Shown here: positions 24,811 to 33,942 of the stretch, in pieces
How positions within the stretch are numbered: the first letter of the stretch is position 1
Layout: each line of letters begins with the position of its first letter
Source of the DNA: Pseudomonadota bacterium
GTDB taxonomy: Bacteria; Pseudomonadota; Gammaproteobacteria; Burkholderiales; Sulfuriferulaceae
Length of the DNA: 64,000 nucleotides
Direction of reading: 5' to 3'
Assembly: GCA_021801025.1 (NCBI GenBank)
Contig: JAJYYK010000011.1
Span: 1-64,000, forward strand
Notes under the pieces: generated by a model
The model's input: the letters and a program-made list of their open reading frames with translations, nothing else
Told to the model about the DNA's origin: nothing
Database searches by the model: none
Translations under genes and position numbers: made by a program

Positions 24811-25149
24811 GTGATCACGGGCGGAATAGATTCAAGTAAAATTGAGGCCATGTTGGCGCAATTAAAAGCGACTGCGGCAAGTGCGCAAGGGTTGGATAAT
24901 TCTGTTCAGACTGCAACGGCACCGAAAACCGGATTTGCCGACGCACTTAAGTCTTCACTTGATCATGTTAATCAGGCGCAACAACAAGCGCAGCAGCTCG
25001 GCCAGAGCTTTGCCACTGGTGATGACAAAGTGAGCCTGTCCGACACGATGATCGCGATGCAAAAGGCAAATATCTCCCTTCAGGAAACAGTGCAGGTGCG
25101 CGACAAGCTGGTTGCCGCGTACACATCAATTATGAACATGCAAGTTTGA
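24811..25149 (+). CDS. fliE: Flagellar hook-basal body protein FliE
   Basis: A 112-residue rod/export junction protein that links the MS ring and export gate to the proximal rod. The C-terminal half is typical: FADALKSSLDHVNQAQQQA, FATGDDKVSLSDTMIAMQKA and YTSIMNMQV at the end. The start is GTG, preceded by a GGGGGG run. It stands alone on the plus strand, divergent from fliF by 238 bp; in many bacteria fliE and fliF share a direction. Confidence 0.94.
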   Translation: MITGGIDSSKIEAMLAQLKATAASAQGLDNSVQTATAPKTGFADALKSSLDHVNQAQQQAQQLGQSFATGDDKVSLSDTMIAMQKANISLQETVQVRDKLVAAYTSIMNMQV

Positions 25150-25599
25150 CGATTCGCCCGACATGGTCCAGACCCGGATCAGATTGTGTATCAGGTATTT
25201 CTGCGACAGCCTCCAATTATTTCTTCCAGACGTTTTTTATCCTTTTTCCTTGCTGGTTTAAAAACCCGGCTTTCAGGCCGGCAGGAGCGCCGAACCCCGC
25301 CCTGACTAAATATCCACCGGCCTGAAGGCCGGTGACCTCATTGCTAACACTTTCATATTTATCCGAATAATTCATTAGGCGACTCTTTGACCTATGTGAG
25401 GGTCGGCTGGCAATTTGCGTCGAAAACTTAAAACTGGGCAACGCGTACATTGATAACCTGTCTGGCCCGGAATGGGTGCTTTAGTCAAAAGCCAGAATAG
25501 AGTATACTTTCCATTGTAAGAAAGTTTGGTTTTTGGCGTGCTGAACAAGACCTGATATTGCAGGCGGGGCAAGTAAACCGGAGGTAAAGTTAACGCAAG
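25150..25599. other. Intergenic region between fliE and hyfB
   Basis: A 450 bp gap without a supported gene. It contains one copy of the 111 bp double-hairpin repeat (25235-25345). The rest is AT-rich and must hold the hyf operon promoter; no clear -35/-10 pair was assigned. GGAGGT lies 14 bases before the hyfB ATG, somewhat farther than usual. Confidence 0.6.
25235..25345. repeat. 111 bp double-hairpin repeat, copy 1
   Basis: Nearly identical over 111 bases to 44730-44840, with only a few substitutions clustered in the first hairpin. It contains two palindromes: CCGGC paired with GCCGG near 25266-25282, and CCGGCC-TGAA-GGCCGG at 25317-25332. It has no coding capacity. Paired hairpins at fixed spacing resemble ends of IS200/IS605-type elements or REP/BIME units, but no family is proven. 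Confidence 0.75.
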
Positions 25600-27624
25600 A
25601 TGGATGCAGCAAATATTTTGCCGATAGATGTGGCTGGTGCGATCATTGCGCTTTTGGTCGGGTTGGGTCTGCTTGGATTGGTATTGCAATGTTTGCCGCA
25701 GGTGATTTGCAACGTGATATTTCCGTTGAGTGCGTTTGCTTCACTTGGGCTGGCTCTGACCGGTTTATGGGCGTTGGGTGCAATACCCGATATTGCTGTT
25801 TTGCCATTAGGCCTGCCCGGTCTCCCGCTACATCTTCGTCTTGATCCCCTTTCCGGTTTTTTTCTGATTTTGTTAGGCGGCGCATCGTTTGGTGTGTCGT
25901 TGTATGCCGCAGGGTATTTCAAGACCATGGCGGGCAAGGTATCAGGTTTACTGTGCCTGGAATATCATATTTTTCTGGCGAGCATGGCCATGGTGTTGCT
26001 GGCAGACGATGCCTATTTGTTCATGGTGGCTTGGGAAACCATGGCGTTGTCTTCTTATTTCCTGGTAACTACCGATCACAACATTCCCGATATTCGCAAA
26101 GCGGGTTTTCTTTACTTGTTGATGGCGCATGTGGGTGCCATCGCTATTTTGCTCAGTTTCGGGGTGATGCAAGGTGGGCATGCGCTCAGCGCCTACACCT
26201 TCGATGCAATGCGTGCATCTCATCCGACACCGTTCTGGTCATCCGTCGCATTCTTGTTGGCGTTGTTTGGTTTTGGCGCAAAAGCAGGTGTTGTACCCAT
26301 GCATATGTGGTTACCCGAGGCACACCCGGCAGCACCCTCGCCAGTTTCGGCGCTGATGAGCGGTGTGATGCTCAAAACGGCGATCTACGGTATTCTGCGT
26401 ATGACCTTTGACCTGCTTCATGCCCAGATTTGGTGGTGGGGTGTACTGACGTTGACCCTGGGCTTGTTGACGGCTGTATTTGGCGTGATGTTTGCTGCCG
26501 TTCAGGAAGACATGAAGCGACTGCTGGCCTATTCATCCATTGAAAACATCGGTCTGCTGCTGGTAGGTATCGGCTTGACGATCATTTTCCATGTTTATGG
26601 CAAGGACGCTCTGGCGGCCTTGTCGCTCACCGCAACGCTTTATCATAGCCTGAACCATGCCAGTTTCAAAAGCCTGTTGTTCGTGGGTACGGGTTCGATC
26701 CTGCATGCGACTGGCAAGCGCGACATGGGACGAATGGGTGGATTGATCCGGTCAATGCCTTGGGTCGCTGCGTTGATGCTGGTCGGCGTACTGGCGATTT
26801 CCGGATTGCCGCCGCTGAATGGCTTTGTCTCGGAATGGTTGCTGTTGCAGGCTTTTCTGCTTTCGCCCGGCTTGCCGAACAGCTATATCAATATGCTGGT
26901 GCCGGTCGCAGCAGCGGTGATCGCATTGGCCGCTGCATTGGCCGCTTACGTGATGGTGAAGTTCTATGGGGTGATTTTTCTCGGTCAGTCACGCGGAGAA
27001 GTAATGGAAGCTGCGCACGATGAACATGCGCACGATGCCGGTTTTTGGGAACGCACGGGCATGGGCTGGCTGGCGCTGCTTTGCGTATTGCTGGGTCTTG
27101 CACCGGTATTCGTGGTGCAACAGATTGATCATGTGACACAGCGCTTGCTTGGCACTCACCTGGGTAATGCCGCCACGGGCTGGATGTTGCTGGCGCCGGT
27201 GGATACTGAACGCGCCAGCTATAGTCCGGTCTATTTCCTGTTGGCCGTGTTGGGTGTCATGCTGGCGACGGCATGGGTCGTGCATCATTATTATCATGGC
27301 AGGCTGCGTCGCGGCCCGGCATGGGACTGCGGCTTTCCCGCGCAGAATGCGCGGATGCAGGACACGGCCGAAGGATTCGGTCAGCCGATTCGACGTATCT
27401 TCGAGCCGTTCTTCAAGATTGAGAGCGATGTGCCTACGCCATTTGACACGCATCCAGAATACCATGGTCGCAGCGAAGACCGCCTGTGGTATCTGTTGTA
27501 TTTGCCCATCAAGCGCCTTACCGAAAAACTGGCTTCCTGGGTTTCGTTGTTGCAGCATGGGCACATTCATCTTTATCTGGCCTATACTTTTGTTACGCTC
27601 ATTGTTTTGCTGGTGTTTGTATGA
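25600..27624 (+). CDS. hyfB: Hydrogenase-4-like subunit HyfB (antiporter type)
   Basis: A 674-residue membrane protein with about 16 hydrophobic segments, of the NuoL/MrpA proton-channel family. Conserved features are WETMALSSYFLV (the glutamate of the channel), FGAKAGVVPMHMWLPEAHPAAPSPVSALMSG with its key lysine and HP motif, and YSSIENIGLLLVGIG. In group 4 hydrogenases such a subunit translocates ions. It opens a six-gene operon whose next start overlaps its stop by four bases. It closely resembles HyfB/HycC rather than complex I NuoL. Confidence 0.9.
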   Translation: MDAANILPIDVAGAIIALLVGLGLLGLVLQCLPQVICNVIFPLSAFASLGLALTGLWALGAIPDIAVLPLGLPGLPLHLRLDPLSGFFLILLGGASFGVSLYAAGYFKTMAGKVSGLLCLEYHIFLASMAMVLLADDAYLFMVAWETMALSSYFLVTTDHNIPDIRKAGFLYLLMAHVGAIAILLSFGVMQGGHALSAYTFDAMRASHPTPFWSSVAFLLALFGFGAKAGVVPMHMWLPEAHPAAPSPVSALMSGVMLKTAIYGILRMTFDLLHAQIWWWGVLTLTLGLLTAVFGVMFAAVQEDMKRLLAYSSIENIGLLLVGIGLTIIFHVYGKDALAALSLTATLYHSLNHASFKSLLFVGTGSILHATGKRDMGRMGGLIRSMPWVAALMLVGVLAISGLPPLNGFVSEWLLLQAFLLSPGLPNSYINMLVPVAAAVIALAAALAAYVMVKFYGVIFLGQSRGEVMEAAHDEHAHDAGFWERTGMGWLALLCVLLGLAPVFVVQQIDHVTQRLLGTHLGNAATGWMLLAPVDTERASYSPVYFLLAVLGVMLATAWVVHHYYHGRLRRGPAWDCGFPAQNARMQDTAEGFGQPIRRIFEPFFKIESDVPTPFDTHPEYHGRSEDRLWYLLYLPIKRLTEKLASWVSLLQHGHIHLYLAYTFVTLIVLLVFV

Positions 27625-28583
27625 TCATTAACGCGGTACAAATTCCTGCTGTGGTTTTTCAGCTGACCCAGTTGCTGCTGGTGGTACTGGCCGCACCTTT
27701 GCTGACCGGCTGGGTCAACCAGTGCCAGGCCTGGCTGCAAAACCGTTCCGGGGCAGGGGTGTTGCAACCCTATCGTGTGCTGCACAAGTTATTTTTAAAG
27801 GATGCGGTCATCGCATACAACGCTTCCTGGTTGTTCCGGGTGACCCCTTACGTTGTGTTCGGTTGTATGTGGCTGGCGGCAACCATCATCCCGATCATTG
27901 CGGTGGATTTACCCTTCTCGCGTGCTGCAGATGTGATCGCACTGGTCGGTGTGTTTGCACTGGCACGCATGTTCGGCGCGCTGGCGGCCATGGACATCGG
28001 TACGGCATTCGGTACCATGGGTGCACGGCGTGAAATGATGGTGTCCTTTCTTGCCGAACCGGCATTGCTGATGGTGTTGTTCACCGCTTCGATGCTCAGC
28101 CATTCTACCCAGTTGCCCTATATCGTGTCCGCTTTTTCCCGGCACCAGTTCATGTTGTATCCCAGTCTGGCTTTTGCTGCACTGGCGTTCCTGATCGTGT
28201 TGCTGGCAGAGAATGCGCGTATCCCGGTGGACAATCCGAATACCCACCTCGAATTGACCATGATCCACGAGGCGATGATTCTCGAGTATTCAGCCCGTCA
28301 TCTGGCATTGATCGAATGGGCCAGCAGCCTGAAACTGTTCGCCTATTTTTCTATCGGCATTGCACTGTTCCTGCCCTACGGCATTGCCGAAGTGGGCCAC
28401 TGGTCTGCTTTGCCGCTGTCTATCCTGCTGTTGCTGTTCAAACTGGCGCTGGCAGGTGTCGGACTGGCCCTGTTTGAAGCGCTGTCGGCCAAGATGCGTA
28501 TTTTTCGTGCACCGGAGTTCCTCGGCACGGCCTTTCTGCTGGCGGTATTGGGATTGTTAATTCATTTTCTGTTGAGTGCTTGA
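27621..28583 (+). CDS. hyfC: Hydrogenase-4-like subunit HyfC (NuoH-like)
   Basis: A 320-residue membrane protein of the NuoH/HycD family that connects the soluble redox arm to the proton channels. The signatures are ARIPVDNPNTHLELTMIHEA with charged residues in the connecting funnel, and EYSARHLALIEWASSLKLF. The ATG at 27621 overlaps the hyfB stop (ATGA); the longer open frame upstream lies inside hyfB. Confidence 0.92.
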   Translation: MIINAVQIPAVVFQLTQLLLVVLAAPLLTGWVNQCQAWLQNRSGAGVLQPYRVLHKLFLKDAVIAYNASWLFRVTPYVVFGCMWLAATIIPIIAVDLPFSRAADVIALVGVFALARMFGALAAMDIGTAFGTMGARREMMVSFLAEPALLMVLFTASMLSHSTQLPYIVSAFSRHQFMLYPSLAFAALAFLIVLLAENARIPVDNPNTHLELTMIHEAMILEYSARHLALIEWASSLKLFAYFSIGIALFLPYGIAEVGHWSALPLSILLLLFKLALAGVGLALFEALSAKMRIFRAPEFLGTAFLLAVLGLLIHFLLSA

Positions 28584-28584
28584 G

Positions 28585-29247
28585 ATGCAGATGCTACTGA
28601 CCTTGCAAATCGTCAACCTGCTGGCCTCCCTGCTGTTGCTGATCGTGTTCGCCATGCTGGCCCAACGGCGCATCTTGTCGCTGATCAACCTGTTCGCTTT
28701 GCAGGGCGCTGTGCTGGCACTCAGTACCTTTGTTGTGGGTTATTCTACCGGACAGCACCATCTTTATTACTCCGCCGGACTGACCTTGTTACTCAAGGTG
28801 ATGTTGTTGCCCTGGTTGCTGCATCGCTTGATCCGCCAACTGGACGTGAAATGGGATGTGGAAACATTACTGAATATTCCCGTCAGCATGCTGATTGGTA
28901 TCGCACTGGTGATCTTTTCTTTTAATCTGGCGGCACCCATTTCGCAACTGGCGCATGGACTGACGCGCGGGTTGATTGGTATCGCGCTGGCCAGTGTGCT
29001 GCTATCTCTATTGATGATGTTGACGCGGCGCAAGGCCGTTTCACAGGTGGTGGCTTTCCTGTCACTGGAAAACAGTCTGTTTTTTGCCGCAGCCAGCGCC
29101 ACGCAGGGTATGCCGCTGGTGGTTGAGTTCGGTATTGCCCTGGATGTGCTGGTTGCGACATTTATCTTTGGTATTTTCTTTTTCCAGATCCGCGAGACCT
29201 TCGATAGTCTGGACATCTCACATATGGAGAAGCTCAAAGATGATTGA
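28585..29247 (+). CDS. hyfE: Hydrogenase-4-like subunit HyfE
   Basis: A 220-residue protein with about six to seven hydrophobic segments, similar to HyfE. HyfE resembles NuoK in its C-terminal half and is found only in hydrogenase 4-type and related complexes. SLENSLFFAAASATQGMPLVVEFGIALDVLVA is visible in two adjoining parts around residues 155-195. The ATG follows the hyfC stop by one base, and its end overlaps hyfF by eight bases. Confidence 0.87.
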   Translation: MQMLLTLQIVNLLASLLLLIVFAMLAQRRILSLINLFALQGAVLALSTFVVGYSTGQHHLYYSAGLTLLLKVMLLPWLLHRLIRQLDVKWDVETLLNIPVSMLIGIALVIFSFNLAAPISQLAHGLTRGLIGIALASVLLSLLMMLTRRKAVSQVVAFLSLENSLFFAAASATQGMPLVVEFGIALDVLVATFIFGIFFFQIRETFDSLDISHMEKLKDD

Positions 29248-30697
29248 TTCGCAACTCCTGGCATTGTTACTCACGCCGCTGCTGGGTGGCGTGTTGCTGG
29301 CGTTGCTGGGGTCGCGTGCCTGGGCGGCAGAATTGAACTCGCTGATGAGTTTTTTCACCTTTATCGCTGCAGTGGTGCTTACCATGCGGGTCATTGATGC
29401 GGGACCGCAAATTGCTTTCCATGAGCAATTTTTCATTGATCCTTTCAATGTGTTTCTGGTGGCGCTGACCGCTTTCGTCGCTTTCACCACCTCGTTGTTC
29501 TCGCGTCCCTACATGCGTATCGAGCAGCACCACGGCAAACTTTCGACGGCCATGTTGCATCTGTATTACAGTATGTATCAACTGTTCACCTTTACTATGC
29601 TGGTTGCGCTGACCACCAACAACATGGGGATCATTTGGGTAGCGATGGAAGCGGCCACGCTCACTACGGTGTTGCTGGTCAGCCTGTATCGCACTCCGGC
29701 CAGTCTCGAAGCGGCGTGGAAATATTTCATTCTTTGCGGTGTGGGCATTGCGCTGGCCCTGTTCGGTACTATTCTGATGTATTTTGCCGCCCAGCACGTG
29801 CTGGGCGAAGGGGGTACGGCACTGTTGTGGACGCATCTCAACCAGGTCAAGGGTCAGCTTGAACCTACCGTGCTCAAATTGGCATTTGTTTTCCTGCTGG
29901 TCGGCTATGGCACCAAAATCGGCCTGGTGCCATTGCACAGCTGGCTGCCGGATGCCCACGCAGAAGGGCCTACCCCGGTTTCTGCCGTGTTATCCGGTTT
30001 GTTGCTGAATGTGGCTTTAACGGCAGTCATGCGCAGTAAAGTGTTGGTGGATGGTTCGTTGGGTACGCATTTCGCAGGTAATTTGATGATGGGTTTCGGC
30101 CTGTTGTCAGTAGCCGTGGCATCGTTGTCCCTGTCGCGGCAGAAAGACATTAAACGTATGTTCGCCTATTCCTCTATCGAACATATGGGGCTGATTACCT
30201 TTGCATTCGGTATGGGTGGCCCGGTTGCCACGTTTGCGGCCATGCTGCATATGACCATGCACTCTTTGACTAAATCTGCGATCTTTTTTGCCGTTGGCCA
30301 TGCCGTCCAGAAGTCGGGTACACAAGTGATGGAAAATATCCGGGGTATGATACAGGTCAGTCCGACTGTGGGTTGGGGTTTGATGCTCGGTACATTGGCG
30401 ATTTTGGGTATGCCGCCGTTTGGTGTATTTGCCAGTGAGTTCCTGATTATCACCACGGCGATGCACGCCTACCCGTGGGTCACACCGATCCTGCTGATCT
30501 CGTTGGGTATTGCCTTTGCCGCCATCTTCGGCAAAATACAGCCTGTCGTGTTCGGCGAAACCACCGCTAAGCCATTGCCACATTCACCTGCGCTGATTCC
30601 AGTCTTTATACATTTATTATTGGTGTTGATGCTGGGTTTGTATATGCCGCCTTATCTGGCAAACTGGTATCATCAGGCGGCAGCCTTGCTGGGTTAG
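29240..30697 (+). CDS. hyfF: Hydrogenase-4-like subunit HyfF (antiporter type)
   Basis: A 485-residue membrane protein with about 14 hydrophobic segments, related to NuoN/NuoM and HyfF. Channel features include WVAMEAATLTTVLLVSLYR, YGTKIGLVPLHSWLPDAHAEG and YSSIEHMGLITFAFGMGG. It supplies a second ion-channel subunit to the complex, so with HyfB at least two channels are present; HyfD is missing. The start codon overlaps the end of hyfE. Confidence 0.9.
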   Translation: MIDSQLLALLLTPLLGGVLLALLGSRAWAAELNSLMSFFTFIAAVVLTMRVIDAGPQIAFHEQFFIDPFNVFLVALTAFVAFTTSLFSRPYMRIEQHHGKLSTAMLHLYYSMYQLFTFTMLVALTTNNMGIIWVAMEAATLTTVLLVSLYRTPASLEAAWKYFILCGVGIALALFGTILMYFAAQHVLGEGGTALLWTHLNQVKGQLEPTVLKLAFVFLLVGYGTKIGLVPLHSWLPDAHAEGPTPVSAVLSGLLLNVALTAVMRSKVLVDGSLGTHFAGNLMMGFGLLSVAVASLSLSRQKDIKRMFAYSSIEHMGLITFAFGMGGPVATFAAMLHMTMHSLTKSAIFFAVGHAVQKSGTQVMENIRGMIQVSPTVGWGLMLGTLAILGMPPFGVFASEFLIITTAMHAYPWVTPILLISLGIAFAAIFGKIQPVVFGETTAKPLPHSPALIPVFIHLLLVLMLGLYMPPYLANWYHQAAALLG

Positions 30698-30780
30698 TGC
30701 CATCAGCGCCGCAGTCAAAAATAACCCTGAATCAACGAGGTTGGTTGTGTGACAGGGCATTATCTTTAAAGGGAAACAAC

Positions 30781-32328
30781 ATGCCAATTATTCATCCCGG
30801 TTTGCAACTGACCCCACTGCATGGTGCGGCACCAGCATGGCAGGGATTTATCGGACAGGATGATCTGCAGCCAATTTGCCGGAGTGTGTGCGATAGCGGT
30901 GGGCGATTAGTAGCGCTGTGGGGCAGCGATGAGCGTGCATCCGGTCCTGGCTTTGTGTTGCATCTGGTGCTGCTCAATGAAACTGGTCTAATTTGTCTGC
31001 ATTTGCCACTGTCGGCAGTGCAACCTGCTTATCCTGATGTCAGTGAAATTTTTCCGGCAGCAGGGCGTATGCAGCGCGCCGCATATGATTTGTTAGGTAT
31101 TGCGCATAATGGGACAGACCAGCGTCAATGGTTGCGCCATGCGGCTTGGCGTAGCGGAAGTTTCCCCTTGTGCAAGGATTTTGATGCCGTTCAAAGCCGC
31201 ACGGATGAATTGGACAACTATCCCTTCGTACAGGTTGCTGGCCATGGCGTCCATGAAATTGCAGTAGGGCCGGTGCATGCCGGGATTATCGAACCTGGGC
31301 ATTTCCGTTTCTCTGTCGTCGGTGAAAAAGTGTTGCGTCTGGAAGAGCGTTTTGGTTACACACACAAGGGTATTGAAAAACGTTTTGAGAGTATGAGTCT
31401 TGGGCAGGGCGCAAAGCTTGCGGGCAGAGTCAGTGGCGACAGCACAGTGGCTTATGCCTGGGCATACGCGATGGCTACAGAAAGCATTGCGGGCACGACA
31501 CCGCCAGATCGTGCCCTGTGGTTGCGCGCGCTGTTTCTGGAACGCGAGCGCATCGCCAATCATTTGGGTGATCTTGGTTTTCTTGGAAATGATGTCGCTT
31601 TTTCGTTCGGCCTGACCCAGTTCTGGATACTGAAGGAACAAGTGTTGCGTAACAATGCAGCGTTATTTGAACACCGCTATCTTATGGATACCATTTGTCC
31701 TGGGGGTGTTTCTGTTGATCTGGCGGAATCCGGCAAGCAAATATTGCTCGAAGAATGCGCCATGCTGGAACGCGAGGCGCACCTGCTCCGCAATATCTAT
31801 GAGGAGCATGCATCCATTCAGGATCGCTATATGGGTACTGGATATGTCGCGCCGAAACTGGCTGCGCAACTGGGCCTTTGTGGTTTGGCCGGGCGTGCCA
31901 GTTCGCAGGTTTGGGATGCTCGGGTGCAGTTTGCCTGTGCGCCCTATGATCAGCTGGACGTACGGATAGCGGTGCATCACAACGGAGATGTGGCTGCACG
32001 AGTGATCGTGCGGTTTGATGAATTGTTCGAGTCGTTGCGTTTACAGCGCAAAATCGTGAGTAAACTGATGCCCAGCGATATATTGATGCTTCCGCTGGAA
32101 AAATTGCCGGGCAATGGTTTTGGCCTGGGTTTGGTGGAAGGTTGGCGTGGTGAAGTGATGGTGGCGATTCATACCGATGCGCAAGGCAATCTGGCGCGCG
32201 TGCACCCGCATGATCCGTCCTGGCAGAACTGGCCAGTGCTGGAACACGCTATTATGAACAATGTCGTACCAGATTTTCCGCTGATAAATAAATCATTTAA
32301 TCTGAGTTATTCAGGACACGATCTGTAG
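30781..32328 (+). CDS. hyfG: Hydrogenase-like large subunit HyfG without NiFe ligands
   Basis: A 515-residue fusion of a NuoC-like domain (about 1-150; AYDLLGIAHNG, WRSGSFPLCKDF) and a NuoD/hydrogenase large-subunit domain. GPVHAGIIEPGHFRF and YTHKGIEKRF mark it as the HyfG/HycE type. Where active enzymes have the first CxxC (RVCGICG), it has RVSGDST at 216-222. Where they end DPCxxC, it has NKSFNLSYSGHDL at the C-terminus. All four NiFe cysteines are therefore absent. It presumably forms part of a redox-driven pump but cannot be a hydrogenase. The ATG at 30781 has AAAGGGA upstream; an earlier in-frame GTG lies at 30697. Confidence 0.9.
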   Translation: MPIIHPGLQLTPLHGAAPAWQGFIGQDDLQPICRSVCDSGGRLVALWGSDERASGPGFVLHLVLLNETGLICLHLPLSAVQPAYPDVSEIFPAAGRMQRAAYDLLGIAHNGTDQRQWLRHAAWRSGSFPLCKDFDAVQSRTDELDNYPFVQVAGHGVHEIAVGPVHAGIIEPGHFRFSVVGEKVLRLEERFGYTHKGIEKRFESMSLGQGAKLAGRVSGDSTVAYAWAYAMATESIAGTTPPDRALWLRALFLERERIANHLGDLGFLGNDVAFSFGLTQFWILKEQVLRNNAALFEHRYLMDTICPGGVSVDLAESGKQILLEECAMLEREAHLLRNIYEEHASIQDRYMGTGYVAPKLAAQLGLCGLAGRASSQVWDARVQFACAPYDQLDVRIAVHHNGDVAARVIVRFDELFESLRLQRKIVSKLMPSDILMLPLEKLPGNGFGLGLVEGWRGEVMVAIHTDAQGNLARVHPHDPSWQNWPVLEHAIMNNVVPDFPLINKSFNLSYSGHDL

Positions 32329-32339
32329 AGGTTAATTTT

Positions 32340-32858
32340 ATGTATCAGATACTCAAACAGATCATTAAAACAGGCATTAAGACAGAGCCCGCACCACAAG
32401 CCAATGAGGCGATGCGCATTCAGCCACAATTGTTGCAGCAGAAAATTCTGGATACATTTGGTCATGCGCTGAATATCCGGCTGGTTGATGCCGGATCGTG
32501 CAATGGCTGCGAGATGGAGATCAATGCGGTCAATAATGCGTATTACAACCTCGAAGGCCTGGGAATCAAGTTCGTTGCCAGTCCGCGCCACGCGGACATG
32601 TTGATGGTCACAGGTCCCGTGTCACGCCATATGGAAGTGGCGCTCAGGCGCACTTTTGATGCGATGCCCGACCCCAGACTGGTGGTGGCGATTGGCGATT
32701 GTGCTTATGATGGTGGGATATTTGGTGAGGGTTATGCAAGTTGCGGAAAAGTTTCCAATATTATTCCGGTGGATGTGGTGGTGAAAGGCTGCCCCCCGAC
32801 ACCTGTTGCAATGATGCAGGGTATACTTGCTGCAATGTCTCATTTCATCAAAGAATAA
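32340..32858 (+). CDS. hyfI: Hydrogenase-4-like small subunit HyfI (NuoB-like)
   Basis: A 172-residue iron-sulfur protein. Cys54 and Cys57 in SCNGCE, Cys121 in GDCAYDGG and Cys151 in KGCPPTP are all kept, so the proximal 4Fe-4S cluster should still form. It would lie next to the altered site of HyfG. It is shorter than E. coli HyfI. It ends the operon, and no NuoI-like ferredoxin subunit (HyfH or HyfA) is found in the window. Confidence 0.92.
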   Translation: MYQILKQIIKTGIKTEPAPQANEAMRIQPQLLQQKILDTFGHALNIRLVDAGSCNGCEMEINAVNNAYYNLEGLGIKFVASPRHADMLMVTGPVSRHMEVALRRTFDAMPDPRLVVAIGDCAYDGGIFGEGYASCGKVSNIIPVDVVVKGCPPTPVAMMQGILAAMSHFIKE

Positions 32859-32970
32859 ACCAGTGCGCATGACATCACACCGACTTATTTTAACTGTTTT
32901 ATAAGAAATGCGTGCCAAGTCATTCTATTTTTGTTATATTTAATCTTAATTTATTAATGGGGCACTCACC

Positions 32971-33942
32971 ATGAAATGGATATCGACTTTTTTATTGTTG
33001 TCGGTACTGCCAGGTTTGGCAATTTCGGTACAGGCCATGGCAAATGAAACAGTAGGTGCTCAGCATGTCGTTATAGCTGAACCCCAGTCCTTGCCAGATC
33101 AGCCACGATTAAGTGCGCTGTCGGTATTGGTGCTGGATGAGACCACTGGTTCAACTTTACTGGATAAAAACCCGGACCTGGAAACGCCCATTGCCTCTAT
33201 CAGCAAGTTGATGACCGCTATGGTGGTGCTGGATGCGAAACAGCCCATGAACGAAAAATTGGCGGTGACAGAGGCCGATGTAGATAAATTGCGCCATTCC
33301 AGCTCACGGTTGGCGGTGGGCACGGTGCTTACGCGCGCGCAAATGTTTCATCTGGCATTGATCGCATCGGAAAATCGTGCTGCTTTCGCTTTAGCGCGTA
33401 ATTATCCCGGCGGGGAAGCAAAATGTATCCAGGCGATGAATCGCAAGGCGCAGGCACTGGGTATGACTCACACGGTGTTTGAAGACCCTACCGGGTTAAC
33501 CAGCCACAATCAGTCCACGGCCGAAGATTTGGCAAAAATGGTCCAGGCAGCGGCAGGTTACCAGGTGATCCATGAAATTACCACCACGGCACATTACCAG
33601 ATCACACGCACCGCGAGGGTAAAAGTGCGCCAGAAACGTCATGCACATCATCATGCTGTGGTATGGCGCTCTGTGACGCAGGAAGTCGCATTTAACAACA
33701 CCAATCCACTGGTGCGTGAAGGTCAGTGGGATATTGGCCTGTCCAAAACAGGTTATATTAATGAGGCAGGGCATTGTTTGGTGATGCAGGCCAAAATTGC
33801 CAGCGAGCGAGTCGTTATCGTCATACTTGATTCCATGGGAAAATATGGCCGAATTAATGATGCAAAACGTATTCGGCAGTGGGTGGAAGCCCATGTGAAA
33901 CATAACGAGATGGCCAGTGCCGCGTCTGATTTATTGCCTTGA
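32971..33942 (+). CDS. pbpG: D-alanyl-D-alanine endopeptidase (PBP7 type)
   Basis: A 323-residue penicillin-binding protein of the S11 family, exported by an N-terminal signal peptide (cleavage after VQAMA). It has the catalytic SISK motif, SEN in IASENRAAFALARN and KTG in LSKTGYINEAG. PBP7-type enzymes cut D-Ala-mDAP crosslinks in peptidoglycan. It has its own 112 bp upstream gap after hyfI and GGGGC before the ATG. Confidence 0.93.
   Translation: MKWISTFLLLSVLPGLAISVQAMANETVGAQHVVIAEPQSLPDQPRLSALSVLVLDETTGSTLLDKNPDLETPIASISKLMTAMVVLDAKQPMNEKLAVTEADVDKLRHSSSRLAVGTVLTRAQMFHLALIASENRAAFALARNYPGGEAKCIQAMNRKAQALGMTHTVFEDPTGLTSHNQSTAEDLAKMVQAAAGYQVIHEITTTAHYQITRTARVKVRQKRHAHHHAVVWRSVTQEVAFNNTNPLVREGQWDIGLSKTGYINEAGHCLVMQAKIASERVVIVILDSMGKYGRINDAKRIRQWVEAHVKHNEMASAASDLLP

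Follow-up and report, generated by a model that had tools for sequence, protein, structure and literature searches.

Membrane complexes resembling hydrogenase 4 but without the ligands of the nickel-iron (NiFe) site have been published as energy-converting hydrogenase-related (Ehr) complexes for comammox Nitrospira (PMC10284858), for Margulisbacteria and relatives (PMC6349859) and for Geobacter (PMC13194489), and the gene set hyfBCEFGI has been published for Nitrospira (PMC5596200). In the accessible portions of these four papers the complex has no settled function; formate dehydrogenase or carbon monoxide dehydrogenase partners are discussed, and no role in carbon supply. Here we describe an operon of this kind, hyfB-C-E-F-G-I, in a 64-kb stretch of DNA (the window; positions 1 to 64,000 of contig JAJYYK010000011.1, assembly GCA_021801025.1) from a member of the Sulfuriferulaceae in the order Burkholderiales. 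A preliminary description made from the window had pointed out that Ehr complexes lacking NiFe ligands exist, as the above reports bear out. The Ehr type and the six-gene set are already known; the new part, and the stronger finding, is the carbon-gene context of this Ehr branch, in many members of which the operon lies beside genes for SulP transporters or carbonic anhydrases. That context is well supported in some families of relatives and unproven for the window's own genome.

The operon occupies positions 25600-32858. Its six genes, all on the + strand and overlapping or closely spaced, have the coordinates and order first described:

hyfB, 25600..27624, + strand: antiporter-like membrane subunit of 674 residues (NCBIfam NF005086, hydrogenase 4 subunit B, 909 bits against a cut-off of 667; Pfam Proton_antipo_M).

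hyfC, 27621..28583, + strand: NuoH-like membrane subunit of 320 residues, with an ATGA overlap with hyfB (Pfam NADHdh; translation).

hyfE, 28576..29247, + strand: small membrane subunit of 223 residues with a GTG start (NCBIfam NF008556, hydrogenase 4 membrane subunit, 83 bits, below the cut-off of 136).

hyfF, 29240..30697, + strand: antiporter-like membrane subunit of 485 residues (NCBIfam NF005045, hydrogenase 4 subunit F, 869 bits against a cut-off of 543; translation).

hyfG, 30781..32328, + strand: large subunit of 515 residues without NiFe ligands (Pfam Complex1_49kDa and Complex1_30kDa).

hyfI, 32340..32858, + strand: small Fe-S subunit of 172 residues with C54, C57, C121 and C151 (Pfam Oxidored_q6).

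The likeliest start of hyfG is ATG 30781, with GTG 30697 as a possible longer alternative. HyfG is a NuoC-like domain fused to a NuoD/HycE-like domain and HyfI is a NuoB/MbhJ-like Fe-S subunit, while the charged residues of HyfB, HyfF and HyfC were kept in nearly all alignment rows. The small Fe-S subunit and the antiporter-like membrane subunits of an Ehr complex are both present, whereas the NuoEFG module and NuoI of complex I were not found in the operon, and the locus almost certainly encodes a six-subunit Ehr-type complex without a NiFe site. The preliminary description had singled out the minimal subunit set as the unusual point. This did not hold up on comparison, as the order B-C-E-F-G-I was read plainly in 148 of the 172 retrieved loci that include hyfB (three duplicate pairs still counted, the other loci being tandem, cut or mis-sorted through overlapping frames) and the same set is published for Nitrospira; the hyfBCEFGI set is ordinary for this family.

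The best solved relative of HyfG was subunit 5 of Escherichia coli formate hydrogenlyase (HycE; 7z0s chain E, E=3e-46), which also ranked first in a fold search with the predicted HyfG model. In the alignment with HycE the motif RVCGICG is replaced by RVSGDST and DPCYSC by NLSYSG, so that the four ligand positions are S218, S221, S509 and G512, in agreement with the preliminary description, which had reported all four metal cysteines as lost, and the RxCGxC and DPCxxC ligands of group 4 NiFe hydrogenases are absent. HyfG ends three residues past the fourth ligand position, where HycE has a C-terminal extension; in HycE that extension is removed by a protease. A HyfG alignment of 111 rows, the window's and those of 110 relatives, had 101 rows (100 of them from relatives) without any of the four cysteines, nine with one and one with all four. 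Sequencing error is untenable as the cause of the loss, since a genome of the same genus (G601) has a HyfG 92% identical to that of the window and the same loss recurs across those 100 relatives.

What replaced the metal site is itself conserved. G219, D220, N503, K504, S505, Y510 and D514 were each identical in 110 of the 111 HyfG rows, the odd row differing or being gapped, and in HyfI the cluster cysteines, which the preliminary description had rightly reported as kept, were found in 105 of 105 rows (C54, C57 and C121) or in 104 with a gap in one (C151). Decay into a non-functional hydrogenase could be argued from the loss of the metal ligands, and the accessible part of PMC13194489 terms the Geobacter Ehr nonfunctional; yet most rows were 41-60% identical while the new HyfG motif and the cluster cysteines were strictly kept, and together with the maintained gene order this contradicts decay, which we regard as extremely improbable. 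Judged from the alignments, the former NiFe site is a remade, constrained site rather than a product of decay. The predicted HyfG model had a predicted local distance difference test score (pLDDT) below 50 at residues 146-194 and at 492-515, the former metal site, and no pocket geometry was drawn from it.

Hydrogenase activity of this complex is very unlikely, judging by the missing ligands. The preliminary description had found neither hyfD nor a maturation gene in the window. The first part stood, as hyfA, hyfD and hyfH were found neither between nor beside the six genes; the second requires a correction for the genome as a whole (2.38 Mb in 20 contigs, listed as 99.96% complete), where a HypD gene is found on contig C4 (C4:55811-56863). 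A full-length NiFe large subunit (C4:62688-64268, PF00374, 793 bits) is encoded some 6 kb away and is presumably the protein that HypD serves. The idea that the complex is a hydrogenase depending on hyp genes outside the window was considered and rejected: HypD is present, but the ligands in HyfG are not. A separate NuoB-NuoC-NuoD set is also present in this genome.

The preliminary description had also proposed quinone as a possible partner. In an alignment with NuoD, two of three residues which we take to be quinone-site residues of complex I, a His and a Tyr, are Ile and Gly in HyfG, while the third, an Asp, aligns with the near-invariant D271; the comparison weakens the proposal without disproving it. 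A soluble Fe-S donor, the other suggestion made there, stays a candidate.

A maximum-likelihood tree of HyfG was built from 65 hand-chosen rows (midpoint root, some long branches, no published Ehr sequence among the rows). A branch with 100/100 support separated 52 ligand-poor family rows and two divergent rows from five HycE/HyfG rows, five NuoD-type rows and a ligand-bearing copy described below. The window's HyfG did not fall within the catalytic HycE/HyfG clade, which agrees with the initial assignment to hydrogenase-4-like complexes of the Ehr kind, and its nearest rows were from Gallionella and Gallionellales. Going by this gene tree and by named contigs, the host would probably belong in or near Gallionellaceae. 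Ehr-type complexes are common in the order: of 399 genomes sampled there, 110 had a HyfG match at E<=1e-40, a number that includes some catalytic and divergent kin. The window's own genus had the complex in five of 13 genomes, the HyfG of the other four carriers being 92% or 60-63% identical to that of the window, and this patchy presence suggests gain, loss or transfer.

Three unusual variants were seen among the relatives (L numbers are our labels for retrieved loci). The first of two tandem operon copies in a betaproteobacterial metagenome-assembled genome (L048:1656-3566, JACPTK010000096.1) encodes the HyfG that keeps all four cysteines (RICGVC, CYSC); it also has an NKSF motif and terminates at CYSCTDR, and is likely a ligand-bearing sister of the ligand-less complex. 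Loci L254-L259 carry a second, divergent ligand-less type with HyfG 30-35% identical and genes sorting as C-E-F-G-I-B. A very divergent HyfG/HyfI pair, with a ligand-less HyfG of 27% identity, was found in a family with 2-Mb genomes (L155:5375-11999 and L160), with further membrane genes 5' of the pair in L155.

The surroundings of the operon in relatives were then compared in two sets of loci. In the exploratory set, for which 80 and 36 loci were viewed and the 75 operons with at least 3.5 kb of upstream sequence were counted, the striking feature was a SulP gene directly 5' of hyfB and co-oriented with it, in some cases with a gamma-carbonic anhydrase beside it; SulP lay within 3.5 kb upstream on the same strand in 10 of the 75. 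The second sample was a new draw from the order, for which SulP, alpha-, beta- and gamma-carbonic anhydrase, ribulose-1,5-bisphosphate carboxylase/oxygenase (RuBisCO) and DabA were named for counting beforehand (no alpha-carbonic anhydrase reference was finally used). It drew on 90 of the listed order matches, some cut, contig-end or frameshifted loci being left out. A further family, first met beside the L047 operon, was included in the count before its likeness to CsoSCA had been noticed. SulP or either carbonic anhydrase lay within 3.5 kb in 27 of 72 operons of this sample, 22 of them with SulP upstream on the same strand. After removal of duplicates (operons sharing 99% or more identity with the first set) and of matches below 50% identity, 24 of 69 operons were linked within 3.5 kb: 23 to SulP (20 upstream and on the same strand), eight to gamma-carbonic anhydrase and four to a CsoSCA-like gene, in a sample that is not independent by descent. 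By chance about 0.3 upstream same-strand SulP genes would be expected per set (0.29 for the second sample), against the 10 and 20 seen; the expectation was set at three times the SulP density (118 matches in 197 Mb) of the 61 other genomes that had an Ehr match of 282.9 bits or more, one fragmentary match left out, and is based on measured density alone. At least two SulP types were linked: the best match of the L111 protein in the PDB was chain 6ki1, which we take to be BicA, and that of the L047 protein was a plant SULTR protein, followed by prestin. Other carbon-seeming neighbours were chosen after the data had been seen and were left out of the counts, namely malic enzyme-like genes (L052, L063, L064), phosphoenolpyruvate carboxykinase (L055), phosphoenolpyruvate carboxylase with a POR-type gene (L106), oxalyl-CoA decarboxylase (L117) and formyl transferase (L098). 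A separate alignment (A1) comprised the window and 29 of the matches found in one search.

CsoSCA-like proteins of about 350 residues occurred outside carboxysome operons at L047:12334-13389, L180:15687-16742, L178:15703-16749, L224:3059-4099, L246:1-978 and L215. They carry the zinc and Asp-Arg residues of CsoSCA, and the L047 copy had no Pfam or NCBIfam match. The name is based on residues C51, D53, R55, H111 and C121, which are common with the CsoSCA-like protein of the window's own genome, on a single-sequence PDB match (2fgy, E=1.8e-4) and on a fold match (8thm, E=1.9e-11) with a weak predicted model (pLDDT 64); the profile search involves some circularity, since its alignment contained the CsoSCA-like protein of the window's genome. 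At L118:11903-14950, 5' of the operon, we observed a gamma-carbonic anhydrase, a CitMHS-type permease with TrkA_C domains and a stand-alone STAS-like piece resembling the end of SulP.

Four loci (L262, L263, L264 and L267) were fetched because RuBisCO showed nearby and serve as examples, not as a rate; gene names in these larger loci came from similarity to own-genome references, with the regulators, small subunit, CbbQ, CbbO and CsoS2 named partly by sequence reading. In L262 and L263, where SulP adjoins hyfB directly upstream, the hyf operon is followed by a CsoSCA-like gene, a large unidentified gene, a LysR-type regulator, form I RuBisCO, its small subunit, CbbQ and CbbO. In L264 the genes for CbbO, CbbQ and RuBisCO lie 3' of the operon on the other strand, and DabB-, DabA- and CsoS2-like genes come next. 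The RuBisCO clusters are within about 6 kb of hyfI in these three loci and within about 0.2 kb in L267, where a carboxysome-type cluster (RuBisCO, CsoS2-like, CsoSCA-like, CbbQ, CbbO) ends about 200 bp from hyfI. A form II RuBisCO gene starts 250 bp 3' of hyfI in Thiomonas (L073), a locus outside the counted set, its upstream sequence being too short.

In the second sample 25 of 26 linked genomes had form I or II RuBisCO (a fragment being present in the remaining one) against 27 of 43 unlinked ones, with forms judged by bit score, duplicates still included and the genomes related. A phylum sample of 80 chosen genomes (the window's own, 46 of the 61 Ehr-positive ones and 33 negatives from some of the same families) showed no such difference for the complex as a whole: RuBisCO was present in 30 of 46 Ehr-positive and 25 of 33 Ehr-negative genomes, so the complex is no marker of autotrophy, and linkage to SulP and carbonic anhydrase is a feature of some autotrophic carriers. 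DabA was likewise not associated with Ehr, matching in eight of the 80 genomes, four of 47 positive (own included) and four of 33 negative.

From these data we favour, tentatively and with slightly less than even confidence in the explanation as a whole, a role in inorganic-carbon supply, in some chemolithoautotrophs at least, for a cation-translocating Ehr complex. A carbon role in this Ehr branch we consider marginally probable. In its favour, the window's genome itself encodes RuBisCO, DabA, a CsoSCA-like protein and a gamma-carbonic anhydrase. For the window's own genome we infer that role, together with the electron flow, the ion, its direction and the partners; ligand loss, retained cluster cysteines, the conserved motif, gene order and linkage in relatives can be taken as established at the level of sequence. 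The four membrane subunits would translocate cations, the former NiFe pocket of HyfG would now be a conserved polar pocket, and HyfI would hold one Fe-S cluster. Because there is no HyfH-type subunit and only this one cluster, electrons, if they flow, would come from a donor contacting HyfI directly, putatively a soluble one of low potential. The energy released might drive H+ or Na+ outward. Where partners such as SulP and carbonic anhydrase are present, this transport would power or balance the bicarbonate import and the CO2/bicarbonate conversion that they carry out. Bicarbonate uptake and dehydration need a cation gradient and use up protons, which a cation pump would fit. The full sequence from donor through the HyfI cluster and outward H+ or Na+ transport to bicarbonate supply is unlikely to be correct in every step, and the cluster may instead be structural in a non-redox role.

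A number of results weigh against a carbon role. No electron donor was identified. Most operons in relatives had no SulP or carbonic anhydrase linkage, and before duplicate removal the linkage was confined to seven of 24 second-sample families (27 of 30 operons there, one of the 27 by a weak match of 31% identity, and none of 42 elsewhere). In neither set did a counted operon have an E. coli-type beta-carbonic anhydrase, RuBisCO or DabA within 3.5 kb. Three SulP proteins were scanned; the L047 one passed the general SulP model's cut-off, and the BicA cut-off was reached by none of the three. The window had no match to SulP, carbonic anhydrase, RuBisCO or DabA. Its genome has no SulP transporter; the gamma-carbonic anhydrase (on contig C6), the three RuBisCO large-subunit matches and DabA, the last on a stretch also carrying RuBisCO and the CsoSCA-like gene, are all on contigs other than that of the operon. 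To these are added the lack of RuBisCO enrichment in the phylum sample and the heterotrophic appearance of some carriers. A rival reading is a general redox-driven cation pump of energy metabolism that is not specifically connected with carbon and passes electrons from ferredoxin or another Fe-S donor to some acceptor; linkage would then arise in certain families because genes for autotrophic growth cluster. The complex occurs in organisms without RuBisCO (16 of 46 in the phylum sample, 11 of 70 in the second sample), families without linkage exist, the cluster cysteines are strictly kept and the remaining neighbours of the operon differ widely. A general pump is a real possibility, although we would not call it probable; against it stands the repeated direct adjacency to differing SulP types and two kinds of carbonic anhydrase in differing arrangements.

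The 13 genomes of the window's genus bear on a further alternative, in which the complex itself hydrates CO2 to bicarbonate or accumulates it, like cyanobacterial NDH-1 or DabAB, with SulP and carbonic anhydrase as parallel devices. Hydration of CO2 in one direction would take place at the former NiFe pocket or on a carbonic anhydrase docked there, and redox or ion flow through HyfB and HyfF would block the back reaction. In two of the five Ehr-positive genomes (G629 and G760) hyfI is directly followed by gamma-carbonic anhydrase and SulP in convergent orientation, a linkage that counts for the favoured reading as well. In that place five Ehr-negative genomes have a row of SulP, gamma-carbonic anhydrase and SulP, and Ehr is present in three of the four genomes without SulP, the window's included; these numbers are small. 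Both arrangements, and the near-invariant new motif at the former metal site, are in favour of CO2 hydration by the complex. The conserved HyfG histidines H166, H195 and H261 are however also present in HycE, so no new zinc site is apparent, and the kept Fe-S cluster would go unexplained; we consider this alternative improbable. If it were true, the complex would join cyanobacterial NDH-1 and DabAB as a third carbon concentrator of the complex-I type. Returning to cation transport in the service of carbon supply, such a role, if true, would extend the carbon-supply machinery of iron and sulfur oxidisers by one component and show reuse of a hydrogenase scaffold after loss of the metal site. The link to SulP, carbonic anhydrase and, at a few loci, RuBisCO makes the unsettled function of Ehr directly testable through a high-CO2-requiring phenotype.

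In the window the operon is preceded by flagellar genes, recognised in part by reading of frames, and followed by genes for a D-Ala-D-Ala peptidase and an esterase, with a class 1 fructose-bisphosphatase 4.5 kb further on. There was no Rfam match in 25000-33200, and promoter-like and terminator-like sites around the operon occurred at a frequency near chance. In relatives small regulators recurred 5' of hyfB (L124, L126, L128, L131, L132, L135, L143, L107:2268-2456 and others), which by sequence reading were XRE-with-cupin-like, short XRE-like and ribbon-helix-helix-like. A PurU-like formyl transferase gene was located between hyfG and hyfI at L098:11548-12399.

We found no paper assigning a ligand-less Ehr to carbon supply within the open-licence literature, a scope by which novelty is not proven, and the accessible parts of PMC12285272, PMC4725956 and PMC9032823 contain nothing on Ehr. 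Related gene contexts have been described. According to the accessible part of PMC3826726, hyf adjoins a beta-carbonic anhydrase in Acidithiobacillus caldus and another hyf set lies near carbon-fixation genes; the likeness to our loci is one of gene context, and the A. caldus genes are interpreted there as an H2-evolving or formate-linked hydrogenase, with no discussion of ligand loss in that part. In A. ferrooxidans SulP adjoining carbonic anhydrase has been proposed as a bicarbonate system (PMC6458275, in the part available), and a review of the carbon toolkit, as far as accessible, places carbonic anhydrase beside formate hydrogenlyase genes in Wood-Ljungdahl organisms and lists DabAB and the cyanobacterial CO2-hydrating NDH-1 as complex-I-type membrane proteins in carbon accumulation (PMC10880623). 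DabAB-like genes share the L264 locus with the hyf operon; the operon described here differs from DabAB and NDH-1 in having no DabA- or CupA/B-type subunit, and its carbon activity is hypothetical. Complex I has counterparts of the NuoL/M/N-, NuoH-, NuoB- and NuoC/D-like subunits and differs in its NADH module, its NuoI and two of the three quinone-site residues. E. coli hydrogenase 4 (HyfA-I) and formate hydrogenlyase (HycB-G) have homologous subunits, including HycE as the best solved HyfG match, but carry four Ni-Fe cysteines, a HyfH/HycF Fe-S subunit and the C-terminal extension, none of which is found in this complex. The published Ehr complexes (PMC10284858, PMC6349859, PMC13194489) are, in the parts accessible, like the present one in being hydrogenase-4-like membrane complexes without CxxC ligands, and the Nitrospira Ehr (PMC5596200, likewise in part) has the same six genes, hyfBCEFGI.

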